Origin: Bacteroidota bacterium
Lineage (GTDB): Bacteria > Bacteroidota > Bacteroidia > Flavobacteriales_E > Vicingaceae
DNA: 64,000 bases
Direction: 5' to 3'
Assembly (NCBI GenBank): GCA_013112545.1
Contig: JABFGJ010000002.1
Location: 124,001 to 188,000, forward strand
Positions within the stretch are counted from its first letter, which is position 1. Every line of letters begins with the position of its first letter. Below, piece after piece: positions 28,183-62,500 of this stretch. A program made the translations under genes and the position numbers. The notes below the pieces were generated by a model, which had not been told where the DNA came from, made no database searches, and saw only the letters and a list, made by a program, of their open reading frames with translations.

Positions 28183-28533
28183 CAGCTCCGCAGGGTTTGT
28201 AACTTCGTTTCGCAGGATTTACAATCCTGCATTGTCTTTCTAAACTTGTTTGATATTCCAAATATAAATAATTACTTGGTTCTGTTGCCGCAGGGTTACA
28301 AACAACTGCGGGGCTTTCATAAGAACATTCAGCTTTTTAGAACACCCAGCGGAGCAGGGTGTCTTTTTTATAATCAGTGGAAAAAGTATGGGGTTTGGTT
28401 AGGGAAAGAGATAAAACATAATACAATTTGATATTGAAAAAAGAACACTCCAAAGGAACACTCCGCAAATTTTTTCCCAACAAAAAAAGGGACTGTTATT
28501 TCTAACAATCCCTTTATTCACTAAGTACCCGGA
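28183..28533. repeat. Long direct repeat, left copy (R1)
   Basis: About 350 bp with over 90% identity by eye to 30478-30873. Shared landmarks in order are the CTCCGCAGGGTTTGTAA start, GTAGGATT/GCAGGATT-type hairpin with AATCCTGC, CCGCAGGGTTACAAAC-CTGCGG hairpin, AACACCCAGCGGAGCAGGG, the doubled GGAACACTCC motif, a terminator hairpin and the 3' end of a tRNA-Leu-like sequence. R1 lacks a ~45-bp piece present in R2. The two copies enclose the DUF234-type ATPase gene. No protein-coding gene is convincing in 28166-28846. Confidence 0.9.
28288..28311. repeat. REP-like hairpin in R1
   Basis: CCGCAG and CTGCGG flank a GGTTACAAACAA loop. The equivalent in R2 is at 30628-30651. A companion hairpin GCAGGATT-tac-AATCCTGC is at 28212-28230. 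Confidence 0.6.
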
Positions 28534-28590
28534 GTCCCGCTCAAGCGGGACACGATCGCAATGATCACCCGATTTTAAGTATTCGGGTGC
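28526..28590 (-). pseudogene. tRNA-Leu-like degenerate copy in R1
   Basis: On the minus strand this has the acceptor 3' strand TCCGGGTA of the tRNA-Leu(UAA) at 30865, and a long variable arm whose stem changed from GGCC/GGCC to GATC/GATC with pairing kept. The T arm is replaced by an 8-bp palindrome GTCCCGCT-AGCGGGAC with a 2-base loop that cannot form a T loop. The CTTAAAA anticodon loop is present but the stem has a 3-base insertion, and the 5' half of the tRNA is missing. Confidence 0.7.
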
Positions 28591-30482: not shown

Positions 30483-30505
30483 CCGCAGGGTTTGTAACCC
30501 TGCGG
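30483..30505. repeat. REP-like perfect hairpin
   Basis: CCGCAGGGTT and AACCCTGCGG pair perfectly over 10 bp with a 3-base loop. It is the most complete copy of the CCGCAGGGTT family that also occurs at 25872, 28288 and 30628. Confidence 0.7.
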
Positions 30506-30854: not shown

Positions 30855-30864
30855 ATTCATAAAG

Positions 30865-30949
30865 TACCCGGAGCCGGGGTCGAACCGGCACGGCCGCAAT
30901 GGCCACAGGATTTTAAGTCCTGCGTGTCTACCAATTCCACCACCCGGGC
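30865..30949 (-). tRNA. tRNA-Leu (anticodon UAA)
   Basis: Class II tRNA, 85 bases. Acceptor GCCCGGG pairs with TCCGGGT (two G-U pairs), the D arm has AATTGGTAGACAC, anticodon stem CAGGA/TCCTG with loop CTTAAAA (anticodon TAA), variable arm stem GGCC-attgc-GGCC, and T arm CCGG-TTCGACC-CCGG. CCA is not encoded. It is the last gene of the minus-strand tRNA cluster. Confidence 0.96.
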
Positions 30950-31039: not shown

Positions 31040-31098
31040 TGATCGCAATGACCATCCCGCTTTAGGCGGGACGTGTCTACCAATTCCACCACCCGGGC
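31040..31098 (-). pseudogene. tRNA-Leu-like degenerate copy with rewritten anticodon stem
   Basis: This copy lies 149 bp upstream of the intact tRNA-Leu(UAA) and shares its 5' flank. The first half is intact: acceptor GCCCGGG and the whole D arm. The anticodon stem is TCCCG/CGGGA instead of CAGGA/TCCTG, still 5 bp, with loop CCTAAAG that keeps TAA at the anticodon position. The variable arm GGTC-attgc-GATC still pairs. After that the T arm and acceptor 3' strand are absent, so a normal tRNA cannot form. Confidence 0.75.
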
Positions 31099-31170
31099 AT
31101 TGGTACACCTCAATTGTTTTACAACAACTAAGGGACAATCCACTTTAATAATCTTCTTAAAAGAAAATTG

Positions 31171-31243
<73 letters not shown>

Positions 31244-31294
31244 TTATATTATTATTTAGAATTCATTCGAATCCTTTTTATTTTAAAGAACCAT

Positions 31295-31365
31295 GCGACC
31301 CCGATTCGCCGCGGCGAACCGTGCTCTTCGACTGAGCCTGTCCGCCTTTGGAGGACTACTCTCGC
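31295..31365 (-). pseudogene. tRNA-Gly-like degenerate unit 1
   Basis: On the minus strand it starts GCGAGAGTAG like the real tRNA-Gly, then has an inserted palindromic GTCCTCCAAAGGCGGAC-type stretch in the D arm, then CTCAGT, then the anticodon arm replaced by the 14-bp palindrome TTCGCCGCGGCGAA (31305-31318), then GGGGTCGC. The T arm and acceptor 3' strand are missing. Confidence 0.75.
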
Positions 31366-31416
31366 TTATATTATTATTTAGAATTCATTCGAATCCTTTT
31401 TATTTTAAAGAACCAT

Positions 31417-31487
31417 GCGACCCCGATTCGCCGCGGCGAACCGTGCTTATCAACTGAGCCTGTCCGCCTTTGGAGGACTACTCTCGC
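31417..31487 (-). pseudogene. tRNA-Gly-like degenerate unit 2
   Basis: Same architecture as unit 1, with the TTCGCCGCGGCGAA palindrome at 31427-31440 and the same D-arm insertion. It differs from unit 1 mainly in TTATCA for CTTCG near the D arm. Confidence 0.75.
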
Positions 31488-31538
31488 TTATATTATTATT
31501 TAGAATTCATTCGAATCCTTTCTATTTTAAAGAACCAC

Positions 31539-31609
31539 GCGACTTCGATTCGCCGCGGCGAACCGTGCTTATCAACTGAGCCTGTCCGCCTTTGGAGGAC
31601 TACTCTCGC
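31539..31609 (-). pseudogene. tRNA-Gly-like degenerate unit 3
   Basis: Same architecture, palindrome at 31549-31562. It carries CACGCGACTTCGA where units 1 and 2 have CATGCGACCCCGA, so it is the most diverged unit and is nearest the promoter. Confidence 0.75.
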
Positions 31610-31657
31610 TTATAAATTCTAATTCTTTCGAATGTTTTTATCTTTTTAAAGAACTAT

Positions 31658-31706
31658 ACCCTTTTTGAAGGGGCTACAAAAGTAATATTTTTTTCAAATT
31701 TTACAA
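31658..31706 (-). promoter_or_regulatory. Promoter of the tRNA cluster with leader hairpin
   Basis: On the minus strand TTG (31706-31704) and TACTTTTG (31684-31677) are spaced by 19 bp, followed directly by a CCCCTTC-aaa-AAGGG hairpin. It would transcribe the three degenerate Gly units, tRNA-Gly, the degenerate Leu copy and tRNA-Leu in one precursor. Confidence 0.65.
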
Positions 31707-31716
31707 CGAAATAAAA

Positions 31717-34410
31717 TTATTTTCCACCAACCATTTTTTTAATTTCATTTAGCTTGAATAAAGCTTCAACTGGGGTTAGTGTATCTATCTCAATTTTAGT
31801 TAACTCTTCCTTTATATTTTCCAAAACAGGGTCGTCAAGTTGGAAAAAACTAAGCTGAAAATCATCTGTTTTTTGACCAACCTCCGCAATTTTATCTTCA
31901 ATTTCGGCAGAAGAGTTCTTTTTTTCCAGCGATTCTAACAATTGATTTGCTCTTCGTATTAGTGAAGCTGGCATACCTGCCATTTTTGCTACGTGAATTC
32001 CAAAACTGTGATTGCTTCCACCCGGAACCAACTTTCTCATAAAAATGATTTTTTTAGCGATTTCTTTTACAGAAACATTAAAGTTTTTAATTCGTTTAAA
32101 ACTTTTAGTCATTTCATTTAGCTCGTGATAGTGGGTCGCAAACAATGTTTTTGGTCGTGCTATTTTGTTTTCATGTAAAAATTCAGCTATTGCCCAGGCT
32201 ATCGAAATTCCATCATAAGTGCTTGTTCCTCTACCAATTTCATCCAGTAGAATTAAACTTCTTGGTGATATATTATTCAAGATGCTAGCCGTTTCATTCA
32301 TTTCTACCATAAAGGTTGATTCGCCTGAAGAGATGTTGTCAGAAGCTCCAACACGTGTAAATATTTTATCAACGAGACCAATTTTTGCATGCTTTGCAGG
32401 CACAAAGCTTCCCAATTGAGCCATGAGGGTGATTAAGGCCGTTTGTCTCAGCAAAGCAGATTTTCCAGACATGTTGGGGCCAGTAATCATAATGATTTGC
32501 TGGCTTTCGTTATCTAAATAAATATCATTTGAAATATATTCTTCGCCTAGTGGTATTTGCTGCTCAATAACGGGGTGTCGCCCTTCTTTTATATCTAAAG
32601 TTAAACTTTCGTTTACCTCGGGCTTTGTGTAATTGTTAAGTTCAGCAATAGTAGCAAAACTTAACAAACAATCGATTCTAGCAATGAGGCTTGCGTTTAA
32701 TTGAATAGGAGAGATGTAGTCTGCGGTTTCAAGTACTAGGTTGTTGTACAAAGAAGTTTCAAGACTTAGAATTTTTTCTTCGGCTCCTAATATTTTTGAT
32801 TCATACTCTTTTAGCTCTTCAGTAATATATCGTTCAGCATTAACAAGTGTTTGCTTTCGAATCCACTCTTCTGGGACTTTGTCTTTATGAGAATTTCGAA
32901 CCTCTATATAATATCCAAAAACATTATTAAAAGCAATTTTCAAAGAGCTAATTCCAGTTCGCTCTATCTCCCTTTGTTGCATGGCAAGTAAATAGCTTTT
33001 ACCTGTTTGTTGTAGGCCTCTTAACTCGTCTAATTCTCTATTTACTCCTTGTTTAATAACATTTCCTTTGGCCACTATTACAGGTGGCTCGTCTTGTAAT
33101 TGCTGTTCAATTTTCTCACGAATACTATGGCAAGGATTTAATTGTTCGGCTATTTTTTTTAATGCAGGGTTTTCAGATTCTTGACATTTTGTTTTGATGG
33201 GTTCAATGGCATTCAGTGCAATTTTTAGCTGCAATAATTCTCTAGGGCTTATACGGGCAACCGAAACTTTAGAAATTAGGCGTTCTATGTCTCCAATTTG
33301 ATGCAATTGATTCCGAATAGAATTCGAAAAATCTTTGTGCTTTAGAAGGTACTCAACAGATGACAAGCGATCTTGTATGGGTTTCAATTCTTTTAAAGGC
33401 AATGCAATCCATCGTTTTAGCATACGCCCGCCCATGGGAGAGATGGTTTCGTCTAAAACATCAATTAAAGTTGTTGCTCCTTCATTAGTTGAAAAAATCA
33501 ACTCCAAGTTTCGAATTGTAAATCGATCAAGCCAAACATATTTATCGGCTTCTATTCTTGAAATTGAGTTTATGTGTTTTAGTTTGTCATGCCTAGTGTC
33601 GGCTAAATAATATAATGCTGCACCAGCAGCAATTATTCCTTCTTCTAGTCTTTCAATACCAAAACCTTTTAGAGATTTTGTTTCAAAGTGTTTTAAAAGC
33701 GTTTCATTTCCAAAGTCTTCTGAAAATACCCAATCTTCTAACATATAAGTAAAGAAACTTGTGCCAAAAGCTTCTTCAAACTGTTTTCTCTTTTGTTTTT
33801 GGAATAAAATTTCACTAGGCTGAAAACTTTGCAATAATTTGTCAATATGTTCTGCATCTCCTTGAGCCAACAAAAACTCCCCTGTTGAAATATCTAAAAA
33901 AGATACACCAATATGTTTGTTGGAAAAGTGAACTGCTGCTAAAAAATTATTCGTTTTTTGGTTTAAAACCTCGTCATTAAATGAAACGCCAGGTGTTACC
34001 ATTTCGGTGATTCCTCGTTTCACTATCGTTTTCGTTTGTTTGGGATCTTCTAATTGGTCGCAAATTGCAACTCTATATCCTGCACGAACTAGCTTAGGTA
34101 AATAAGTATTAATAGAATGATGTGGAAAGCCAGCTAATTCGATTTCGTTTGCAGACCCATTGTGTCGTTTAGTTAAAACTATGCCTAAAACCTTGGAAGT
34201 CTTAATGGCATCTTCTCCAAAAGTCTCATAAAAATCACCAACTCGAAAAAGCAATAAAGCATCCGGATGCTTGGATTTTATTTGATGATATTGTTTCATC
34301 AAAGGAGTTTCGGACTTTGGTTTTTGGGATTTCGCTTTCTTACTCAAATTTAGATTTTTAAGGTGGTCTAAATTAATACAAGCCTTTAAAATTCGAGCAT
34401 TTAAAACCAT
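31717..34410 (-). CDS. mutS: DNA mismatch repair protein MutS
   Basis: An 897-residue MutS, recognising base mismatches. The mismatch-binding domain has [20 protein letters not shown] (Phe and Glu of the FxE motif within it), and the ATPase has Walker [14 protein letters not shown], the MxE-type [10 protein letters not shown], Walker [17 protein letters not shown] and [11 protein letters not shown]. The ATG at 34410 gives a 37-residue lead before MKQYHQIK; a TTG at 34347 ([21 protein letters not shown]) better fits the usual length. Divergent from the SpoU methyltransferase gene. Confidence 0.96.
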
Positions 34411-59500: not shown

Positions 59501-62500
59501 ACATATACAGTTTCTAGTATAGATTTAGGTACTTGGATTACAATTCCGTTTAATACTGCCATAAATTTATCTGGCAATAAACAATATGTATTGGCTTATG
59601 AACAAAAAGGGTCAGTTCCTTTAAGAGTTGGTAGAGATATAAGTGTTCAAGATAGAATTATGCCAGTAACAAACTTCGTGTTTGTAGGTGGCGGCTGGGG
59701 ATGGATTGATGCGATTCCTGGTATGCGACTTAACTTTGGAAATGTAGGAAGTACTATCTCAGATGCTAAAATACTAAGTGTAAGCGATCCTTCAGAATAC
59801 ACTAAAATACCAAACTATCATCATGATTATTACACAAACTCTGCATGGGTTAAAAATGTTGGGACTTCAAATTTGACCAATGTAAGAGTGAAGTATAGTG
59901 TTTATCGAAATGCTTCAATTTTTCAAGTTGATAGTACTCCAAGCATAGCAACATTAGTAGTTGGAGATTCAATTCAATTATTTGCCAATAACTCATTTAA
60001 CTATTTCCTTAAAGGCAACTATCAAGTGAATTATGAAGTTGTTTTTAGTGGAACTGATGCAAATCCAAGTGATAATGCAATGTTATCTGATGTATTAGAA
60101 ATTACAGATACAACATTTGCAAGACATGATTTAAATGCAACCAATTCATTGGGTATTACAAATGGGTATGGAGAAATAGGAACTATTTTTGAAACAAGAT
60201 TTCAAGACACATTGACCACAGTTAGAGCTTATTTTACAAACTATAATGGACAAATCTCAAACAAACCACTTAGTATAAATATCAGAGATTTTAATGGTGT
60301 TCCGGGTAGTATTTTGGCTTCTTCAGATACGGTAATCTACAGCAATTCTGGAAGTTCATTTGTAGATTTTACTTTTAATAATATCGGCGGCTATTTAGTT
60401 TTACCAGGTGATACCTTTTTTATTGGAGCAGTCAATCGGGATTCTAATATATCTTTAGGAACTACTCCTAATAAATATTTACCTAAAACAACTTGGGTAC
60501 AAATTGGAACATCAGGGCCATGGCAAAACAATGAGGATTATGGTTTCTTTGTAACTTATGTGCTGGATGCCAATTTTGGGAATGTAAAAAGTACATGTAT
60601 TCAACCAAATGCAAACTTTTCTATTTCATTTAATACAAGCTGTGTTGGCGGTACTGCAACATTAACAAATACATCAACAAATACATCTGCTAATACTATT
60701 TATAAATGGGATATTGGGAATGATGGAACAATAGATTATACTAGTACTTCCGCAAGTCATACGTTTAATACCTCTGGTAGTAAAAGCATTAAACTTCTAG
60801 TTGAAAATGGGGCGTGTAAAGATTCGATTGTTAAGTCTAGAAACATAAGTCCGCTGCCTACAGCTGATGCTGGAAATAATAAATCAATTTGTATAGGCGC
60901 ATCAACAACGATTGGGGGTTCACCAACAGGACCAAGTGGGTCAACCTACTCGTGGAGTGGAGGCTCTAGTTTAAATTCAACAAGTGTAGCTAATCCAACA
61001 GCAAGCCCAACTTCAACAACTACTTATACGGTAACTGTAACAAGCAGCGCAGGATGTACTTCAACAGACCAAGTAATGGTGACAGTAAATCCAATACCTA
61101 CAGCTGATGCTGGAAATAATAAATCAATTTGTATAGGGGCATCAACAACAATTGGGGGCTCACCAACAGGGCCTAGTGGGTCAAGCTACTCGTGGAGTGG
61201 CGGCTCAAGTTTAAGTTCTGCAAGTGCTGCTAATCCAACAGCAAGCCCAACTTCAACAACTACTTATACGGTAACTGTAACAAGCAGCGCAGGATGTACT
61301 TCAACAGATCAAGTAATAGTGACAGTAAATCCAATACCTACAGCTGATGCTGGAAATAATAAATCAATTTGTATAGGGGCATCAACAACAATTGGGGGCT
61401 CACCAACAGGGCCAAGTGGGTCAACCTACTCGTGGAGTGGCGGCTCTAGTTTAAATTCAACAAGTGCTGCTAATCCAACAGCAAGCCCAACTTCAACAAC
61501 TACTTATACGGTAACTGTAACAAGCAGCGCAGGATGTACTTCAACAGACCAAGTAATGGTGACAGTAAATCCAATACCTACAGCCGATGCAGGAGTTGAC
61601 AAGACAATCTGTAATGGAAGTTCTGTAAGTATAGGAGGCTCACCAACAGGGCCAAGTGGATCAAGCTACTCGTGGAGTGGCGGCTCTAGTTTAAATTCAA
61701 CAATTGCGGCTAATCCAACAGCAAGCCCAACTTCAACAACTACTTATACGGTAACTGTAACAAGCAGCGCAGGATGTACTTCAACAGATCAAGTAATGGT
61801 GACAGTAAATCCAATACCTACAGCCGATGCTGGAGTTGACAAGACAATCTGTAATGGAAGTTCTGTAAGCATAGGAGGCTCACCAACAGGGCCAAGTGGG
61901 TCAAGCTACTCATGGAGTGGCGGCTCTAGTTTAAATTCAACAAGTGTAGCTAATCCAACAGCAAGCCCAACTTCAACAACTACTTATACGGTAACTGTAA
62001 CAAGTAGCGTAGGATGTACTTCAACAGATCAAGTAATGGTGACAGTTAATTCTGTTGATAATTCGGTTAGTCAATCTGGGTTTGTGTTAACTGCAAATCA
62101 AGTAGGTGCTACTTACCAATGGATTGGCTGTGGTTCAACTCCCACTGGACCAATTTCAGGTGAAACTGGAAGATCCTTTACACCAAGTATTAATGGTGAT
62201 TATGCAGTTATTGTAAGTTTAGGGAATTGTATTGATACAAGTGCTTGTATTCCTGTAATAGGAGTCGGAATTGAAAAATTTGAAAAAGCAAATTCGATTA
62301 GCATCTTTCCAAATCCTAACAATGGTAATTTTAAGATTGATATGGGTACTTATTATTCGAGCACTGCTTTAGTTTCCATTCGTGATATTCAGGGAAAAAT
62401 GATTTATAAGACAAATGCACTCAATCAAGTGCTTGAAGTGAATTTAAATATTAGTGCAGGAATTTATTTTATTGAAATAAATAGCATAAAAGGAAATGTT

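Follow-up and report, generated by a model that had tools for sequence, protein, structure and literature searches.

What are the three tRNA-like units that precede the tRNA-Gly(GCC) gene of this Bacteroidota bacterium: structured RNAs processed from a tRNA precursor, products of a mobile palindrome, or debris of repeated breakage and repair? The window, that is, the whole 64,000-nucleotide stretch of DNA analysed here, contains the following features around the locus, given in minus-strand order:

31717..34410, minus strand: mutS, the upstream neighbour (also the neighbour of this locus in genomes G005 and G007)
31677..31706, minus strand: predicted promoter of the tRNA-Gly/tRNA-Leu operon, TTG-N19-TACTTTTG, of the Bacteroidetes -33/-7 type
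31610..31676, minus strand: original short leader, with hairpin CCCCTTC-AAAA-AGGG and boxA-like GTTCTTTAAAAA
31488..31609, minus strand: unit 3, first transcribed; tRNA-Gly 5′ part, hairpins, variable region and boxA-like spacer
31366..31487, minus strand: unit 2
31244..31365, minus strand: unit 1, adjoining the intact tRNA-Gly(GCC)
31340..31356 (unit 1), 31462-31478 and 31584-31600, minus strand: D-region hairpin GTCCTCC-AAA-GGCGGAC
31305..31318 (unit 1), 31427-31440 and 31549-31562, no strand assigned: TTCGCCGCGGCGAA in the place of the anticodon arm
31170..31243, minus strand: intact tRNA-Gly(GCC)
31040..31098, minus strand: partial tRNA-Leu(TAA) 5′ copy without T arm
30864..30949, minus strand: intact tRNA-Leu(TAA)

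The units (31244-31609) lie head to tail upstream of the intact tRNA-Gly(GCC) and in the same direction; this gene is the only tRNA-Gly with a GCC anticodon found in the genome. A preliminary description of the region had called them three exact 122-bp units. The length and arrangement hold, but pairwise comparison reveals 3, 4 and 7 differences in 122 positions. Each unit reads GCGAGAGTAG [TCCTCCAAAGGCGGA] CAGG CTCAGT..AGCACG [GTTCGCCGCGGCGAATC] GGGGTCGC ATGGTTCTTTAAAA.... and is made of the 5′ half of tRNA-Gly, into which one hairpin has been inserted after position 10, while a second takes the place of the anticodon arm. The retention of the tRNA 5′ start and of CTCAGT, the presence of TTCGCCGCGGCGAA at the anticodon arm and the loss of the T arm are all as previously described. 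The tRNA match extends beyond the palindrome through CGGGGTCGC (the variable region) and ends at the T arm, whose place is taken by an AT-rich copy of the leader; the boxA-like GTTCTTTAAAAA reappears at the start of each unit's spacer. The D-arm palindrome reported as GTCCGCC-TTT-GGAGGAC is indeed a hairpin, but one mismatch makes it fold as an interrupted stem. It is akin to TCCGCC-GGCGGA and to the hairpin of a tRNA-Pro(TGG) array, TCCTCCATAGGCGGA. The partial tRNA-Leu(TAA) between the intact tRNA-Gly and tRNA-Leu genes had escaped notice; in this copy, TCCCGCTTTAGGCGGGA / TCCCGCCTAAAGCGGGA at 31055-31071 replaces the anticodon arm. Perfect palindromes of at least 14 bp arose in 31 of 5000 shuffles of one unit, and a 400-kb sample of the genome yielded a single further palindrome that was as long and had a G+C content of 50% or more.

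Probable transcription of the array and turnover at the Gly-Leu locus

In the relatives, 21 loci have similar promoter motifs no more than 250 nt upstream of tRNA-Gly. The array is likely to be transcribed as part of the tRNA leader, because a conserved predicted promoter precedes it. Its position downstream of that promoter would suit a functional role for the units, as structured RNAs cut from the tRNA precursor or as a structured regulatory leader; the preliminary description had considered the former, as a new type of tRNA-derived RNA. The leader also folds more stably than shuffled sequences (z -6.4, as compared with z -2.0 for a single unit), but tandem palindromes give such stability automatically. 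The units, moreover, are devoid of the acceptor 3′ strand and of the T arm, both used by RNase P and RNase Z. Rfam returned no family except tRNA, and a unit used as query had no match in 99 other genomes.

The succession of tRNA-Gly and tRNA-Leu(TAA) is kept across the family, which allowed the orthologous locus to be compared. Many genomes have nothing extra there (for example, G025, G030, G028, G016, G013 and G015), and others have copies of their own. Genome G005 carries a Gly copy with TTCCGATAGCTATCGGAA, along with GIY-YIG genes downstream of tRNA-Leu; in G007, a Gly copy is accompanied by two Leu copies with CCTGCCTGCCGGCAGGCAGG and, again downstream of tRNA-Leu, by a GIY-YIG gene. In G021, a Leu 3′ copy shows GTCCCGCTATAGCGGGAC in the T-arm place. 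The Gly copy of G002 has its hairpin in the same place as the window's, and the hairpin of a Leu copy in G014 is nearly identical to the window's Leu hairpin; these common positions may reflect common descent. Such fast turnover favours repeated damage and repair and disfavours a conserved RNA.

The conservation at orthologous loci expected of a conserved structured non-coding RNA was thus not found, and no cross-species conservation hints at a product of the units. At tRNA-Met, the version of the palindrome described below has its stem kept in many species, with one stem pair altered on both sides in this genome, as an RNA function might predict; there, however, the hairpin is located at the 3′ terminus of an endonuclease element that encodes a protein. 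The data do not support a new class of RNA, since the units have neither acceptor 3′ strand nor T arm, no homologue elsewhere, and no counterpart at many relatives' loci, which are empty or hold a different copy and hairpin. That the units work as structured RNAs or as a regulatory leader appears quite unlikely.

Short tandem repeats are prone to mis-assembly in draft genomes. Nevertheless, the three units are 3-7 bases apart and the array sits on a 393-kb contig; furthermore, the same architecture recurs in many independent genomes, with the Met element present in a complete chromosome (CP067379.1). We regard an assembly artefact as hardly credible.

Partial tRNA copies and their hairpins

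When each tRNA gene was aligned to its own flanking sequence, partial copies appeared beside at least 12 of the 34 tRNA loci examined in this genome, about a third; Ala(GGC) and Val(GAC) copies were added by eye to these alignment-based 12. In many of them, a perfect or near-perfect hairpin stands in for one of the tRNA arms. The anticodon arm is the one replaced in copies of Leu(TAA), Asn, Ala(TGC), Arg(TCT), Met and Pro(TGG), and the T arm in those of Ala(GGC) and Pro(GGG), while hairpins in the D arm are seen for Gly, Val(GAC), Pro(GGG) and Pro(TGG). The Pro(TGG) locus comprises four tandem 127-bp units that share with the window units both hairpin positions and the lost T arm. Its D hairpin, TCCTCCATAGGCGGA, has the same mismatch as Gly's TCCTCCAAAGGCGGA. 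Two Pro(TGG) copies, with A for T and T for C at the mismatch, carry TCCACCAGAGGTGGA and TCCACAGAGGTGGA (one base missing); these base changes at the mismatch position restore pairing.

Two other loci deserve mention. Directly downstream of the intact tRNA-Ala(GGC) (L022 1576-1925, G000:C1) are nine tandem 38-bp units, each composed of AGAGGTCA, hairpin CCACGCCCAAAGCGTGG replacing the T arm, and TATTCTCCAC (the acceptor 3′ strand). In an rRNA operon spacer (L006, G000:C17), arm-replaced partial copies of tRNA-Ala(TGC) flank the intact tRNA-Ala on both sides; the neighbouring gene is tRNA-Ile, which itself follows the 16S rRNA 3′ end.

Downstream of the Gln, His and Ser(GGA) genes (L024, L025 and L031), 3′ tRNA copies are preceded by the complement of their own T-arm strand and by a GAGAAG motif common to them, with larger palindromes as a result. 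These look like fold-back products at a T-loop break. tRNA genes are known docking sites for large islands, and the downstream duplicates of tRNA 3′ ends (Gln, His, Ser) resemble att repeats. For remnants of attachment sites of tRNA-using integrative elements (tyrosine-recombinase islands), however, the repeats are oddly placed: about 100-350 bp separate them, and this interval holds nothing but a terminator or a GIY-YIG gene. In half of the cases it is the 5′ part that is duplicated, and hairpin-replaced arms are not an outcome of integration. We consider this origin very improbable.

The search for TTCGCCGCGGCGAA in the 3.27-Mb genome gave four sites: the three Gly units and one partial tRNA-Met copy. 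The palindrome was absent from the 46 other genomes searched. At the tRNA-Met locus, a GIY-YIG gene lies 43 nt downstream of the intact tRNA-Met and is followed by TTCGCCGCGGCGAA, the layout being tRNA-Met / terminator / GIY-YIG ORF / GGGCTCATA-hairpin-C..AGGTTCGAGTCC.. (tRNA 3′ half) / terminator. The same layout, with a TCCGCC-N(2-4)-GGCGGA hairpin at the same tRNA position, was found in more than 20 Flavobacterium genomes, as well as in Vicingaceae M30B7 (same contig as G009), Balneolia, Chitinophagaceae, Cyclobacteriaceae and others. Thus, the TCCGCC-GGCGGA hairpin at the end of the tRNA-Met-linked GIY-YIG element is conserved across Bacteroidota and Balneolota. The exact Met junction pattern was detected in 10 of 395 genomes sampled evenly from the phylum and in none with the reversed control. 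Compared with TCCGCC-GGCGGA, the Met hairpin of this genome has one pair altered on both sides, C-G to T-A. As it is the relatives' hairpin with one pair changed on both sides, TTCGCCGCGGCGAA is, judging from the sequences, a local form of the conserved element-end hairpin, common to elements at two tRNA genes.

How the palindrome reached these sites is a separate matter. The suggestion that the unit formed once by palindrome insertion and was then amplified fits the data, since the three units share both hairpins and the joint, and since the palindrome belongs to a hairpin family that recurs at many partial tRNA copies. The accompanying idea that it is an ordinary dispersed REP does not apply to this genome, where the 14-mer is confined to tRNA copies and lacks the many intergenic copies of a REP-like sequence. 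REP/BIME sequences are likewise short GC-rich palindromes repeated genome-wide, and TCCGCCTNAGGCGGA behaves in this way in some Bacteroidia, being dispersed away from tRNAs in, for example, G048 (14 copies) and G023; the palindromes considered here differ from them in being concentrated at the arms of partial tRNAs. The existence of TCCGCC-GGCGGA palindromes away from tRNA genes in other Bacteroidia means that hairpin insertion could be independent of any nuclease. The main rival to the reading we favour (see below) builds on this: dispersed REP-like palindromes would enter non-functional, hairpin-forming DNA, partial tRNAs made by ordinary replication slippage would be tolerant targets, and GIY-YIG genes would be incidental. 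In the window units, GTTC is common to the T arm and to the boxA-like leader, as expected under slippage. On the other hand, TTCGCCGCGGCGAA is limited to tRNA copies in this genome, and wider scans, which covered tRNA-flanking stretches and a 400-kb sample, found the related tRNA-copy hairpin types absent from the latter. The hairpins also occupy fixed tRNA positions in many species, and the tRNA-linked GIY-YIG genes fall into groups according to tRNA type. We therefore consider it rather unlikely that a mobile palindrome inserted itself without a nuclease.

GIY-YIG genes linked to tRNA genes

The genome's PF01541 matches comprise UvrC, a further gene that lies away from tRNAs, and six sequences located 24-386 nt from a tRNA gene; six of the seven small GIY-YIG matches thus adjoin tRNAs (Arg, Pro twice, Met twice, and Asn). 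The Asn-linked copy has an internal stop and one of the Met-linked copies looks decayed. By sequence, the catalytic domain of the linked elements is intact (PF01541, 54-65 bits), and the Y, G, R, H/N and E columns are invariant in 17 proteins. No NCBIfam family was found for three of the GIY-YIG proteins, and the Met-linked protein of this genome had no tblastn match in 50,697 phage records.

Among Met-type loci gathered by a profile search built on the Met subset, 43 of 56 have a tRNA within 400 nt. Within the bacterial family, further GIY-YIG genes are found at Leu, Val, His, Asn, Pro, Ala and Arg. In a 105-sequence tree, which is based on few columns and in which the sampling of the Met group depended in part on its own query, a 99/95 branch sets 44 proteins that have no neighbouring tRNA apart from 61 others, among which are all 44 that are tRNA-linked. 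Several unlinked members of the latter side nevertheless touch partial tRNAs. Within the 61-protein side, lineages follow the tRNA type across genera (Met, Pro, Arg and Leu); the genes lie beside their putative targets, and their lineages are tied to these targets across species. A Gly-specific lineage was not found among the GIY-YIG proteins.

In two relatives of the same bacterial family, GIY-YIG units with partial tRNA-Met copies form very large tandem arrays next to this essential tRNA gene:

L079 1253-5599 (G009:C9): ten units, constant 457-bp spacing, equal scores
L078 1293-4124 (G013:C2): eight units

The window array, in contrast to these, contains no match to a GIY-YIG gene. As a side observation, one GIY-YIG gene away from tRNAs (L041, G000:C13:18321) lies between long GTCATTGCGAGGAGGTACGACGAAGCAATCTG-type repeats, which suggests a second association of GIY-YIG genes with palindromes.

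Breakpoints and a proposed mechanism

Breakpoints are seen at the T loop and at the anticodon arm. In G002 Met, G021 Leu(CAA) and G057, the hairpin falls exactly between GTTC and GA of the T loop, the G002 Met junction being GGGTTC[CCCGCCCGAC..GTTCGGGCGGG]GAGTCCC. The Gln, His and Ser(GGA) 3′ copies of the present genome start exactly after the T-loop TTCG, and upstream-type units (Gly, Leu, Asn, Ala and Pro(TGG)) all have their endpoint inside the T arm or immediately ahead of it. We also considered a universal GTTC microhomology at the joints; it suits Gly and the Asn case of G019 but fails for Pro(TGG), so only the T-arm endpoint is claimed.

Phage T6 SegB, a GIY-YIG enzyme, cuts inside tRNA genes with an enriched motif, RAWTSGAAC, and its nuclease activity is required for the tandem amplification of a tRNA-segB segment, which the authors ascribe to the 5′ region of the tRNA recombining with the 3′ region of segB (PMC13096335). 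This motif is the complement of the T-loop consensus GTTCSAWTY. By analogy, SegB-type amplification is the closest known mechanism: T4/T6 SegB is a free-standing GIY-YIG homing endonuclease with its gene beside tRNA genes, tRNA and endonuclease segments are amplified in tandem, and the cleavage motif complements the T-loop sequence that holds several of the hairpins and breakpoints seen here (PMC13096335). The genes described here differ in being bacterial chromosomal, in encoding 78-93 aa and in having lineages that each keep to a single tRNA type; what is duplicated is half a tRNA in which a hairpin stands for one arm, and cutting is putative. SegB leaves the origin of the hairpins in partial copies unaccounted for. 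Fungal mitochondria provide another parallel, for truncated gene copies lie near free-standing endonuclease genes, as with atp9 in Armillaria; that case concerns mitochondrial protein genes and a LAGLIDADG ORF, and the portion of the report consulted mentions no arm-replacing hairpin (PMC6506933). A literature search of incomplete coverage returned no report of elements such as ours in bacterial chromosomes; priority is not proven.

We propose, with a probability of roughly one half, that tRNA-targeted GIY-YIG endonucleases drive the breakage, hairpin-marked partial duplication and amplification of tRNA loci, the window units being non-functional by-products. Small single-domain endonucleases encoded beside tRNA genes would cut the T loop or the anticodon arm. 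Repair would duplicate one tRNA half together with its flank and leave the short palindromic hairpin that is seen at the break of the partial copy. The cut site would thereby be destroyed in the partial copy while one complete tRNA is retained, the hairpin marking and protecting the site. Further cutting and unequal recombination might then make the flank and half-tRNA repeats grow or shrink. Where the duplicated segment included the endonuclease gene, arrays like those of 8-10 copies at tRNA-Met in relatives would result; where it comprised only leader and tRNA half, an endonuclease-less array would form, as in the window, and would now lengthen the leader of the tRNA-Gly/tRNA-Leu transcript. 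As the window array has no GIY-YIG gene, the nuclease would have acted in trans or since been lost, and for the same reason we file the array as a by-product rather than as a member of a SegB-like element.

Several lines of sequence evidence argue for the endonuclease model: the genome-wide partial copies, the sharing of TTCGCCGCGGCGAA with the Met element, the tRNA-linked genes and the type-wise tree. The T-loop breakpoints matching the SegB motif point the same way by analogy, as do the GIY-YIG genes and different copies at the Gly-Leu locus of G005 and G007, a locus that is empty in many other genomes. Against it stand the array's want of a GIY-YIG gene and of a Gly-specific lineage, as well as the intact tRNA beside the array, which should itself be a target. 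Its weakest point is the hairpin's origin.

More tentatively, the elements could make up an undescribed Bacteroidota class of tRNA-homing elements with small GIY-YIG endonucleases that insert into a tRNA gene, rebuild the tRNA and mark the displaced half with a hairpin. A tRNA-type-specific element would supply the tRNA half, and the hairpin would stand where the T or anticodon arm had been cut; on this view, the window array is an amplified, non-autonomous derivative whose palindrome was exchanged with the tRNA-Met element. We hold this version possible, at somewhat under even odds. The array exemplifies a pattern that is widespread and apparently undescribed, with SegB-type tRNA-linked homing endonucleases as its closest likeness.

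If the endonuclease model is correct, tRNA genes are attacked by very small endonuclease elements that leave hairpin-tagged halves behind while preserving tRNA function. SegB-type tRNA amplification would extend from phages to bacterial chromosomes, families of half-tRNA arrays overlooked by annotation would be accounted for, and a comparative system would become available for how homing endonucleases spare an essential gene. It would also caution against taking every structured tRNA-like array for a new RNA, as such arrays can be scars of recombination.

The window contains two further kinds of repeat. GC-rich hairpins of a different dispersed type lie beyond tRNA-Leu (GCAGGATTTACAATCCTGC, GTCCCGCTCAAGCGGGAC and CCGCAGGGTTTGTAACCCTGCGG; 28212-28230, 28534-28551 and 30483-30505), and a 240-bp tandem repeat in five copies (60857-62050, 93% matches) is found apparently inside a coding region.
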